Source: Antedon mediterranea
Taxonomy: Eukaryota > Echinodermata > Crinoidea > Comatulida > Antedonidae
Assembly (NCBI RefSeq): GCF_964355755.1
Contig: NC_092674.1
Location: 8,003,001 to 8,067,000, forward strand
Direction of reading: 5' to 3'
Length of the DNA stretch: 64,000 nt
Shown piece after piece: positions 40,576 through 54,198 of the stretch (the first letter of the stretch is position 1; each line of letters starts with the position of its first letter). The notes under the pieces were generated by a model. It did not search any database, was not told where the DNA came from, and saw only the letters and a program-made list of their open reading frames with translations. Made by a program: the position numbers and the translations under genes.

Positions 40576-43500
40576 ATGTCTTTCGTAAACTATTTGTCAA
40601 ATGTTCTTCATCTGGTTTTAATGATTCTCAGTTTGAGCTGTCGAATAGAATCTTCAGGTACGTTAAACAATATTACTATGGTAGTAGTAATGTATTTCAA
40701 GCTTGTGACTTTGTTTAATTTTATTATTTGTTTTCCTGGATTCAGTCACACTTAAATGACTCTTGCTCCTATCTTTTCTGTACCTACTTGCTGAGAATAA
40801 TTGTAAATCATTCATTATTTGTATTCATCTATTTGTTAAAGATCCATTGGATATAACTGCATTTTCTGGCACACCACTGACGACGGGATCTATTAAAAAT
40901 TGGTTTCGAGGATACGCACTTCAAGACGACAAAGATATTAGAGATTTATCAGTTGGAATAGTGTACAAGAATGGGAAAGAGAACGTGACTTGGAATGATA
41001 CTGATGATTATTCTGGTCATAACGAAAAAATGATAATTATGCCTGACAATAAACTATTTCCTACAAACAGCATAATTACATGCCGTGTACACCCTTCACA
41101 CACGTATCTAGGTGTTAATTACTTAAGCCTACAATCTCAAACTGAGAGAGTTGGTGTCTTCTCATTTCAAGCAAAGAAAAATGAAATAGTTACAAATTCA
41201 GCAATTGTCTTATCATCCGCTTCTGGTGAGTAAAGCAATATCCATCATGATCTATATACATGTTTCATTCATTTGTGTTCCTTATACGATGTTGACACAT
41301 ACGTAAGGCTCATGAACCGAATTATTCATTCATTCAATCTTTTATTTCGGAAACTCTGGTCCATAGAAAGTAAATTACATATAAATGAAATAAATAAAAT
41401 CTATATATAAATTTACGTAAGGGCAAAATTCGGTAAATCGCGCCTTACTTCTAGAATTTTTACTCGATGGTATATAAAGTTGGTTCGTACTTTCGGTACT
41501 GATTTTAACCACCTGATGTAACCCTGTTTACTAATTAAATTAAGTTAGATAATTAGTTATTGACGACTAAAACGAATTTAGGTTCAACGATTTGCCCCAA
41601 ATAGGGGTGTTTTCCGATCGTGGTATACACTGTCTAATGGATGTTCATCTTGAAAAATACCCGCCACAAAAATGCGAGGAGGCTTCGCATTTTTCTATCT
41701 CCTCCTACGATAATTGTTTTTAATAGCTGAAAACCGGTTGAACAGTTCGAGTACAGCATCATAATGTTGAAGACAGGCCGATTTTCTTTTAAAAATACTA
41801 TTTTGATAGATTTAATATACGTTTTTACAAATGTATTGATTTGTGATGAATGGAACATTCTAAATTATTTGGTTTAACCATAGAGGTATAGATTTAGATT
41901 TATGGGCCCCCTTGGAGAATAAACATAAATAGTATTGCAATGCTGTACAATACTGTTAAGGTATTAACCACTTTTGATCGCAATTTGAATCGTAAATTTC
42001 TTACTGTGAGTGTTGGTACTGTTAGATGTAATATAAAAATATACAAATAAACTTTATTACTGTGAGTGTGGGTAGGCCCTACTGTTAGATTATAAACATA
42101 TAATATACAAATAAACATTCCAAATTATTTGGTTTAACCATTATACAGGTATAGATTTAGATTTATGGGCCCCCTTGGAGAATAAACATAAATAGTATTG
42201 CAATGCTGTACAATACTGTTAAGGTATTAACCACTTTTGATCGCAATTTGAATCGCAAATTTCTTACTGTGAGTGTTGGTACTGTTAGATGTAATATAAA
42301 ATATATACAAATAAACTTTATTACTGTGAGTGTAGATAGGCCCTACTGTTAGATTATAAACATATAATATACAAATAAATAAACGTTATTACTGACAGTT
42401 GCTTCACAACGTTTGTATTAATTAATAATTTAAAAATATATAAACGTCGTAGTGGTGTATCGTTACATGTACTTTACTATTTCAATCGACTATGACAGTG
42501 AGAGTTTTAACAAAGTACCGTATTAAATCGTAAATGTTTTACTGTATTTAGTGGTATATTATTTATAGGCCTATAAAACATTAAAAACAATATTTCGTTA
42601 CTGAGTGGATAAGAATATATTTTAAAATGTTTCCTCTTTGTACCTATCTTCTTCCCCCATCCCCCAACCCTTATGTTACATACAAAACACAAATTAGGTT
42701 TGTTTAAATTAGTCCAAATAAAAAAATTTGACTCATTTTGTTTCTCTCTCGGAAGTAATTCCCAGGGTGCTAATTTTGGTTGACTACATAAATCATTGTG
42801 TATATTTATTCGTTTCTGTAAACGACAATGTATTATAGTCCTGCGGTACGTACATTTGAAATCTCCATTTTTTTCTCGCTGGAAATACTGTGTATTCGAG
42901 AACCATCTGTTGGCACGACCTAGATGGTACGCGAGCGAAGCGAGCGTGCCATCTAGTAAACAAAATTACTACTACCATCTCAGGATGGCATTCCATCTGG
43001 AGAGCATCTTCGACTTAACTAAGACGTTGCTTATAATCGTTGAGATTAAAATATTTTTGCTTGCGTTAAGTCTACACATCAGGCCATATATTGATATTCT
43101 TAACAATTCATAAAAAAAGGGAATTCTACATTCCGTAAACATGAGGCTGGCACTGCAATGTCGAAGCCTTTGCAACAACATTCTTAAACCATTATTGTAG
43201 CATACCTGGAGAGATCGCAAGGTACCTTGATTATAGTTGCACCATAATGTAGCACAAAACATATTTACACAATATGTTCTAAATATAACACATTTCACAT
43301 TGATAGAACACATACTACATTTTCTGACCAAGGAGTTGGCTCGGATACACAAAGATCTGTATTGCCGCTTTATATCAAACTCATCACATAAATCCAAGGA
43401 TATAACATGACCAAGATATGTCGTTGAGTCCACATATTCTAAGCTTTTGTCATTAATGGTAATAATAGGTTTATTTATAAAATAAAATATTATTATAATA

Positions 43501-52500: not shown

Positions 52501-54198
52501 GAAAAAAATAAATCTAGAAAAGGTTGTTATTATTATTTTGTGTTTAGTCAGCGAGCTAAATTTTAGATGCATTTATTTTGCATTAGATTTTGGGAAAGCA
52601 TTTACCAAACAAACTAAAATAATGGATAAGCCATGCAAAGTTCTTCCAACAATTTAAAATAGTAGATTCTTCCATAGTTGGTTCCTAGGTCAATTTACGA
52701 GCGGTAACGGTAAAGCTTGGTTCCCACTAGCGACGCAATAATTGTGTTTGCTCCCGCCTGCTTGGAATCAAACCTGTGATTTTTTCAGCACTGTTGCGTC
52801 GTCGGTTCCCACTTGTGATTACGCAATACAGCACTTTGCGTCGATATGTCACTGCGTTGCGTTGCGTTCAAGTGGGAACCACGCTTTAGCGGAAAACCAC
52901 GTAGCTTGTCCTACATAGAATCTGTATCTATCCTGAGCGGAAACCACCAGTCCGCTCCTGTGCGTTGTGTGTAAATGGTCATAAGGAATAACACAGATTC
53001 TATATTTTTCTTACCGGTAACGCCCGTCTCTGTAGACTAGCCTTTAGGAGAGATGAGGTCCAATATATACACCGAATGTACTACTAGTTATATTATTTTT
53101 TTCCAGGATAATACAAAACGAAGCATTATTCTGTATGAGGTTAACCAATGGCCAAAAAAAATAACTGTTCCAGAAGTTGATTCGTTTGTTAAATTCGTTA
53201 TGACAATAATGCAGCGATCAGATGTCACATCATCACCAATCACTGTTCATTGCAGGTAGGTATAATAAATAGGAATATCAATACTAGTATCAGAAACGAG
53301 GCTGGTTGTTGGTTAATAGGTTGGTTAGGTAGTATGGAAACTTTAATTTCTAGTTCCAGTTTTTTTAAAGTCCTGACTAAGCGGACTATATTTGAGCTGC
53401 CTCTTTTAAAAAGAGAGACCACGAGAATTGTCATTTCCATTTCAAAACAAGTGGGAAAAAATAATAGTTTATTTTTATAGATCCAATGCACCTTTCAATG
53501 AAGATGCACAAAATAATAAGTACAAAACTAAATCAACACGATAAAGAAAAATAACCAGAAAGAAATAGAAAAGCCTTAGGAAGGTTTAGTGTTATCCGAA
53601 CCTTCCTAAGTGAAAGTGTTGCTTTTATGATTGATAGGCTTACATGTGGGTATAAACAAACTAGGTTGAAAAATGATGTTGGTTGCTAAGTTAGTTTAGA
53701 CAAGTCTATTTGCCTGAAAAGCCGGAAACATTTCTATCTATTTCAACAAAAAGTAGCAATAACAGTTGATTTACTGTTTTTGGAGGTTGTTTTAGCGGTT
53801 AATTTTATTAGGAAAAAAACTAAATAAAATGTATCTCTATGTTCAGAGACGGTGTTGGTAGATCTGGATTATTCTGCCTAGTTTATTCAGCGATCCAGAA
53901 AATGCGAGAAGACAAAGTGGTGGATGTATTCCAAACACTTAAAGCCCTTCGCTCAGCATGCTCAAATATGGTGGAATCCGAGGTAAGTTTTTTTATATGT
54001 CTGGGATAGGTTTGTGTGTTTAAACGTTATTTTTTTTTTCTTTCTTCATATGCTAAGGTTTTTACGATAATACCGTCTGATACTATGTTTGTATAAATCA
54101 CCGTTTAAATGATTGTGTTTTTGTTTTGTATGTTGTAGGTCCAGTACAACTTTTGCTACGATGCAGCACTGTGTTATCTGAAAACATACGAGGAATAA
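40576..54198 (+). CDS. Gene 2: Tie-like ectodomain receptor tyrosine phosphatase
   Basis: 27 exons, 1,402 aa, phases consistent: 40576-40657, 40842-41225, 43539-43787, 44009-44143, 44320-44460, 44901-45026, 45368-45508, 45784-46095, 46349-46416, 46624-46864, 47286-47585, 47749-47827, 47924-48242, 48499-48601, 48787-48863, 49212-49248, 49332-49429, 49616-49738, 49934-50100, 50401-50536, 51003-51140, 51288-51372, 51608-51675, 52268-52522, 53107-53255, 53847-53982, 54139-54198. Domains: signal peptide 1-27; N-terminal domain 28-155; Ig-like 156-238 (DDGVYEC); four EGF-like 239-419; three FN3 420-726; membrane helix 727-753; tyrosine-rich juxtamembrane; D1 about 860-1150 with WPD Asp1025 and HCSSGAGRSG (Cys1060, Arg1066); D2 to 1402 with WPK (Lys1305) but intact CX5R (Cys1337, Arg1343). 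D1 should be active, D2 weak or regulatory. Ectodomain exons are symmetric phase 1-1. The intron after 49,429 uses a GC donor. The Ig-EGF order and [10 protein letters not shown]-type EGFs recall Tie receptors. Confidence 0.88.
41325..43450 (-). mobile_element. LINE-B-family fragment in gene 2 intron 2, split by a Helitron-like element
   Basis: The 3' tail (ATTCATTCAATC, 41,325-41,399) and the RT C-terminal region (42,957-43,433) of a LINE-B relative are separated by the Helitron-like copy at 41,400-42,956. The coding part (TTYLGHVISLDLCDEFDIKR, then NMFCATLWC) is uninterrupted, so it shows the intact junction that is broken in the 25-28-kb copy. The same intron in gene 3 (58,547-58,656) is only 110 bp and lacks the insertion. 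Confidence 0.75.
41400..42956 (+). mobile_element. Helitron-like non-autonomous element, copy 2
   Basis: Starts TCTATATATAAATTTACG and ends CATCTAG, lying between A and T (A|TC...CTAG|T) with no target duplication, the classical Helitron insertion pattern. The terminal hairpin is at about 42,929-42,956. It contains an internal tandem duplication of about 258 bp (about 41,853-42,370). No coding capacity. Confidence 0.65.
51840..52150. repeat. Degenerate intronic repeat with CTGTAAACGCGTC motif
   Basis: In the gene 2 intron between 51,675 and 52,268, CACTGTAAACGCGTCAAT occurs twice and a third related unit (TTAACGCGTCAGTACT) follows, each with a nearby reduced TTACGCTT-type segment. The matching gene 1 intron has CACTGTAAACGCGT twice (21,675-21,765). 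Confidence 0.6.
52713..52886. mobile_element. 174-bp MITE with TGGTTCCCACT terminal inverted repeats
   Basis: The termini AAGCTTGGTTCCCACT and AGTGGGAACCACGCTT are inverted repeats with one mismatch, flanked by TA on both sides as a target duplication. The interior has GCGTTGCGTTGCG-like words. It lies in the gene 2 intron after exon 24 and is non-coding. Confidence 0.7.
52916..53002. repeat. Small inverted repeat next to the MITE
   Basis: TAGAATCTGT (52,916-52,925) pairs with ACAGATTCTA (52,993-53,002). This may be a second, older foldback element beside the MITE. Confidence 0.4.

Follow-up and report, generated by a model that had tools for sequence, protein, structure and literature searches.

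What kind of receptor is encoded at positions 40576 to 54198 of the stretch analysed here, a 64,000-nucleotide window of the Antedon mediterranea genome (C5:8003001-8067000, positions numbered 1-64,000; 354 Mb in 18 contigs), where an ectodomain reminiscent of the Tie receptors appears to be joined to tyrosine phosphatase domains? Tie receptors are known as kinases. We find that this gene, gene 2 of the window, very likely encodes a type I membrane receptor in which a Tie-type block of immunoglobulin (Ig) and epidermal growth factor (EGF) domains is carried by a tandem of classical protein tyrosine phosphatase (PTP) domains, within a lineage-specific, tandemly expanded family. It is, in other words, a receptor PTP whose ectodomain is new, and one of a large family. 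The gene 2 model, its paralogs and their features are described here from genomic sequence.

Gene 2 was rebuilt exon by exon from stop-to-stop reading frames, splice-site scores and phase, independently of the model in the preliminary description, and the same gene emerged: 27 exons and 1,402 codons on the plus strand, from an ATG at 40576 to a stop ending at 54198, with consistent phases throughout. This structure is almost certainly correct as modelled. A signal peptide is followed by an orphan N-terminal domain, an Ig domain, four EGFs, three fibronectin type III (FN3) repeats, a membrane helix and two PTP domains (Table 1). In Pfam, the protein matches Y_phosphatase twice (E 3.5e-126), fn3 three times and EGF_2, and Ig_3 weakly. 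All boundaries between ectodomain modules are in phase 1. One intron is of the GC-AG type, with its donor after 49429, and the intron 50100/50401 interrupts the HCSSGAGRSG motif of the first PTP domain (D1).

Judged from the genome, the ectodomain and phosphatase exons belong to one gene, because gene 1 of the window has exons 4-27 in the same order as gene 2, gene 4 reads through completely, and a Tie-type head followed by PTP exons recurs at 29 places. Gene 4, which lies immediately beyond the right end of the window (C5:8068229-8080295, L013/L014), encodes an intact protein of ~1,400 amino acids through all 27 homologous exons and keeps 26 of 26 acceptors and 25 of 26 donors, including the same GC donor as gene 2. 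Its read-through and the shared splice sites bear out the earlier assumption that head and PTP form a single transcription unit.

Table 1. Features of gene 2 and of its neighbours in the window (aa, amino acids; ORF, open reading frame; D2, second PTP domain)
Feature	Position	Strand	Assignment	Basis or remark
Gene 1	12998..23170	+	exons 4-27 of paralog	same order
Exon 1	40576..40657	+	signal peptide (27 aa)	ORF, donor score 6.1; homologous exon 1 in gene 3 (57849) and gene 4
Exon 2	40842..41225	+	N-terminal domain, ~128 aa, orphan fold	fastest-diverging part of gene 2
Exon 3	43539..43787	+	Ig domain, counterpart of Tie2 Ig2, ends LIVR	weak Ig_3 and I-set matches
Exon 4	44009..44143	+	EGF-1	Tie2 alignment
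Exon 5	44320..44460	+	EGF-2 with CxPDPxGC core (Tie2: CLPDPYGCSC)	Tie2 alignment
Exon 6	44901..45026	+	EGF-3	Tie2 alignment
Exon 7	45368..45508	+	EGF-4	kept in paralogs
Exon 8	45784..46095	+	FN3-1	Pfam fn3
Exons 9 (46349-46416) and 10 (46624-46864)	46349..46864	+	FN3-2	Pfam fn3
Exon 11	47286..47585	+	FN3-3	Pfam fn3
Exon 12	47749..47827	+	clear membrane helix, YIIVLACGSLFAILIAVAIIFMIFRR	read from sequence
Exon 13	47924..48242	+	juxtamembrane tail, several tyrosines (YEGV, YTDP, YNNT, YTPI)	sequence reading
Exons 14-21	48499..51140	+	PTP D1 (aa 882-1118 by Pfam)	TEWPDKSVP, HCSSGAGRSG, QTKEQY
Exons 22-27	51288..54198	+	PTP D2; stop codon 54196-54198	NQWPKKITVP, HCRDGVGRSG
Gene 3	57849..61352	+	exons 1-8 of further paralog	

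When the whole head was compared with the PDB by phmmer, human Tie2 (2gy5, 9lv4, 4k0v) came first with E 6.8e-34 and 120.5 bits, against E 2.8e-8 and 36 bits for the next unrelated entry and 7e-4 and 21.6 bits for SCARF1. The alignment is collinear across Ig2-EGF1-EGF2-EGF3 and takes in both the junction of Ig and EGF and the CxPDPxGC core of EGF-2. Likewise, EGF1-3 alone matched Tie2 at 1.3e-23 and the next protein at 3.6e-5. The Ig domain lacks a cysteine at the first strand position, like Ig2 of Tie2 (TINL vs NISF). On these alignments, the Ig-EGF1-3 block is in all probability homologous to that of Tie, and to this extent the earlier claim of a Tie-type ectodomain on a tandem PTP holds; it does not extend to the N-terminal domain encoded by exon 2, an orphan with no relative in the PDB (7-sequence profile) or in Pfam. 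The four EGF exons lead straight into FN3-1, with no third Ig between them. The gene 2 product is not a Tie receptor, since it has neither a kinase, nor a third Ig, nor a match to the Pfam model of the Tie2 Ig.

The cytoplasmic part is that of a receptor-type tandem PTP (RPTP), gene 2 having a signal peptide, a single helix and two classical PTP domains. D1 and D2 find their best PDB matches in PTPRA, PTPRE and LAR, and the two-domain alignment to PTPRA reaches E 8e-117. Aligned to PTPRA D1, D1 of gene 2 keeps the HC-x5-R-S loop (HCSSGAGRSG), the WPD motif (TEWPDKSVP) and the QTxxQY Q-loop (QTKEQY). In D2, the WPD position reads WPK and the Q-loop is degenerate (VESEVQY). The known tandem RPTPs combine an active D1 with a D2 that is a pseudophosphatase (PMC7959691). 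By its motifs, D1 is probably active as a phosphatase; an active D1 combined with an inactive D2 appears to be the likeliest reading, with some doubt as to the efficiency of D1.

Gene 2 does not stand alone. Tie-type heads occur on C1, C3, C4, C5, C6, C7, C8, C10, C11 and C17, mainly in tandem arrays. A PTP or tyrosine kinase exon was assigned to a head if the two shared a strand and no further head marker came between them, and by this measure at least 29 of the 95 head markers among the matches listed have PTP exons next, in tandem arrays that amount to about 30 genes. The PTP-linked count is a lower bound, only the best candidates having been scored in the genome search, and some markers represent one gene twice, so that 95 markers correspond to about 90 heads. 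The head-then-PTP order was found on C5 (7.66-8.08, 12.0-12.14 and 25.2-25.33 Mb), C6 (7.17-7.24, 26.28-26.39 and 30.45-30.52 Mb) and C1 (4.88 Mb). The Tie-head PTPs fall into two deeply diverged subfamilies, the second being formed by the C6 genes, whose head matches Tie2 with E 5.3e-39 (137 bits vs 26), has the EGF-2 core CLPDPYGCSC and is followed by an FN3, D1 (WPDKGVP, SAGVGRTG) and D2. Tens of further heads have no detected PTP; sampled units of this kind consist of FN3s and a short tail at C5:7.93 Mb and of a head alone at C6:26.107 Mb. The author of the preliminary description knew of no Tie-like receptor phosphatase family, and we too found no description of a Tie-headed receptor phosphatase in the open literature, although unpublished invertebrate database annotations could exist.

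The copies differ in how strongly their parts are conserved. In codon comparisons with gene 2, overall ratios of nonsynonymous to synonymous substitution rates (dN/dS) of 0.47 for gene 1 and 0.50 for gene 4 imply purifying selection on the coding sequence. The most constrained part is D1, with a dN/dS of 0.22 between genes 2 and 1 and an identical protein (exons 14-21, dN 0) in genes 2 and 4. Exon 2 shows 64% amino acid identity and a dN/dS of 0.86 between genes 2 and 4, and its identity between neighbouring paralogs is 64-71%. The pattern looks like a homogenised phosphatase below a diverging distal domain. The comparison of genes 2 and 4, whose proteins are identical over exons 14-21 but at 64% in exon 2, suggests gene conversion or recent exchange limited to the 3' half.

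Several points weigh against the reading of gene 2 as a Tie-headed receptor phosphatase, and they are best considered together with the alternatives to which most of them lend themselves. As the gene 2 model was derived solely from genomic sequence, and as heads without PTP are also present in the genome, two adjacent genes, a Tie-like or MEGF-like secreted or short receptor and a receptor PTP, might have been wrongly joined. We consider this exceedingly improbable: exon order, phases and splice sites are common to genes 1, 2 and 4, the 1,400-aa frame is unbroken, the membrane-helix exon stands between the head and PTP exons, and the same order of head and PTP recurs at 29 places, including on another chromosome. 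The Ig exon, moreover, is a generic Ig when searched alone, many Ig proteins in the PDB being closer to it than Tie; consequently, what is specific to Tie lies in the EGF block and in the adjacency of Ig and EGF. Nor did the Pfam model Ig_Tie2_1 (PF10430), a match to which had been proposed as a check along with EGF, fn3 and Y_phosphatase, follow these three in matching; it was silent in the gene 2 protein and in the genome, as it also was in the control genomes, all prokaryote. Given that EGF arrays are common, one might take the ectodomain for an ordinary MEGF/SCARF-type array that resembles Tie by convergence only. This is very improbable in view of the 120 bits for Tie2 as opposed to 36 for the next unrelated entry and ~22 for SCARF1 (the PDB being an incomplete control for MEGF), the 137 versus 26 bits of the chromosome-6 head, and a match that stays collinear from the Ig into the EGFs and across the CxPDPxGC core of EGF-2. 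As to the structural comparison with the Tie2 head that had also been proposed, the AlphaFold models obtained for exon 2 and for exon 3, with two window sequences per alignment, had a predicted local distance difference test score (pLDDT) of about 40, too poor for use.

On the cytoplasmic side, the phosphotyrosine loop of D1 reads KNQN at the KNRY position, in gene 1 as well, and its activity could be lower. Combined with the WPK and VESEVQY of D2, this would fit a true receptor in which both domains are pseudophosphatases and which acts as an adhesion receptor or a phosphotyrosine-binding scaffold. We regard this as rather unlikely, considering the C-x5-R loop, WPD and QTxxQY retained in D1, its position as the most constrained part (dN 0 vs gene 4; dN/dS 0.22 vs gene 1) and the canonical D1 of the chromosome-6 relatives. 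A different question is whether a Tie-head PTP antagonises a Tie kinase through a shared ligand. The common head speaks for such antagonism, as does the reported action of vertebrate PTPRB on Tie2 (PMC7959691), and the preliminary description had envisaged kinase and phosphatase receptors competing for the same ligands. That proposal fared poorly: a search with PF07714 and a tyrosine kinase exon query placed such an exon after none of the 95 head markers among the matches listed, and a 50-kb walk (C11:15.36-15.41 Mb) at the isolated head that most resembles Tie (C11:15.407 Mb) met no kinase, so that antagonism through a shared ligand seems improbable to us. Finally, the idea of a recognition repertoire draws solely on copy number and the divergence pattern.

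If gene 2 does act as a Tie-headed receptor phosphatase, the N-terminal and Ig domains may bind a soluble or cell-surface ligand, with the stalk of EGFs and FN3s orienting or clustering the receptor. Ligand binding would shift receptor clustering or position, and D1 could then dephosphorylate nearby phosphotyrosine substrates, with D2 as a regulatory pseudophosphatase. The tail tyrosines might be phosphorylated and recruit SH2 proteins, and the head-only and short-tail paralogs could serve as decoys. The array structure and the divergence of exon 2 over conserved PTP parts make a recognition repertoire plausible, and judging from these sequences the chances of a diversified recognition role for the family seem evenly balanced. 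More tentatively, and we are doubtful here, this animal lineage may have rewired the Tie head from kinase to phosphatase output in tens of tandem genes, with diversifying N termini over a homogenised phosphatase and additional short-tailed and head-only members, as a paired, possibly immune or self-recognition, system on a Tie/RPTP chassis. The presence of a Tie-type head on tens of phosphatases in one invertebrate genome, with no kinase detected, shows that this recognition module is mobile and that its output can change between the addition of phosphate and its removal. This raises the questions of what the original ligand of the Tie head was and whether receptor phosphatases can give rise to large recognition repertoires.

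Elsewhere in the genome, about 17 heads of the most Tie2-like type lie at locus L024 and in C6:26.05-26.28 Mb with no detectable PTP, and a unit sampled among them (L035) has head exons only. At C1:4879000-4888999, a gene with head and FN3s was found to have D2 exons (e23-e27) and a tail with repeated tyrosine motifs, and D1 was not found. Two successive Ig-EGFx4 heads stand ~2 kb apart on one strand at C3:27625000-27634999, possibly forming a receptor with two heads that lacks both PTP and kinase. Beside the C11 head, C11:15359000-15394700 holds a TRIM gene (RING, B-box, FN3, SPRY) and tandem genes like ionotropic glutamate receptors.

Within the window, exons 9 onward of gene 3 were not found before the window end. 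Exons 2-3 of gene 1 probably lie at C5:7996.0-7996.9 kb, upstream of the window and separated from exon 4 by an intron of ~19 kb that is filled with satellite DNA; the head marker at C5:7996659 is very probably its exon 3, ~19 kb, including the 45-bp satellite, before exon 4. Satellite-like arrays at 240-9150, with a ~45-bp unit in up to 96 copies and 128-bp units, apparently fill this long intron. Another 45-bp tandem repeat (33218-34207, 22 copies, 97% match) lies inside a G+C-richer stretch at 28-36 kb in which no plus-strand Pfam match was found. On the minus strand, a retrotransposon lacking long terminal repeats, with endonuclease and reverse transcriptase matches, occupies 36000-38900 between genes 1 and 2, and a frame that by eye resembles the C-terminal portion of reverse transcriptases lies at 42972-43514 in intron 2 of gene 2.

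Among known systems, Tie2/TEK, the angiopoietin-1 receptor kinase, shares with gene 2 the collinear Ig2-EGF1-EGF2-EGF3, the LIVR-Cys junction and the CxPDPxGC EGF-2, and it also has three FN3 repeats before the membrane. Gene 2 differs from it in having a PTP tandem for the kinase, an orphan N-terminal domain for a recognisable Ig1 and a fourth EGF, and in lacking both the third Ig between EGFs and FN3s and a match to Ig_Tie2_1. The SCARF/MEGF proteins have similar short, Cys-rich EGF modules, whence the weak SCARF1 matches (21.6 bits vs 120.5 for Tie2), but no PTP. The tandem RPTPs (PTPRA/PTPRE and LAR/PTPRF/PTPRS) resemble gene 2 in the membrane helix and the D1-D2 arrangement and provide the best matches of its cytoplasmic part. 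FN3 and Ig are typical RPTP ectodomain modules, those named being fibronectin, Ig and MAM, not EGF (PMC7959691). Gene 2 departs from the tandem RPTPs in its EGF block, its Tie-type Ig-EGF head and the KNQN of D1. To our knowledge, an EGF block with a Tie-type Ig-EGF head occurs in no described RPTP class. PTPRB (VE-PTP) has an ectodomain different from that of gene 2 and a single PTP domain. It is a receptor phosphatase tied to Tie biology, with Tie2 as a reported target (PMC7959691); whereas PTPRB acts on Tie, gene 2 itself carries a Tie-type head.

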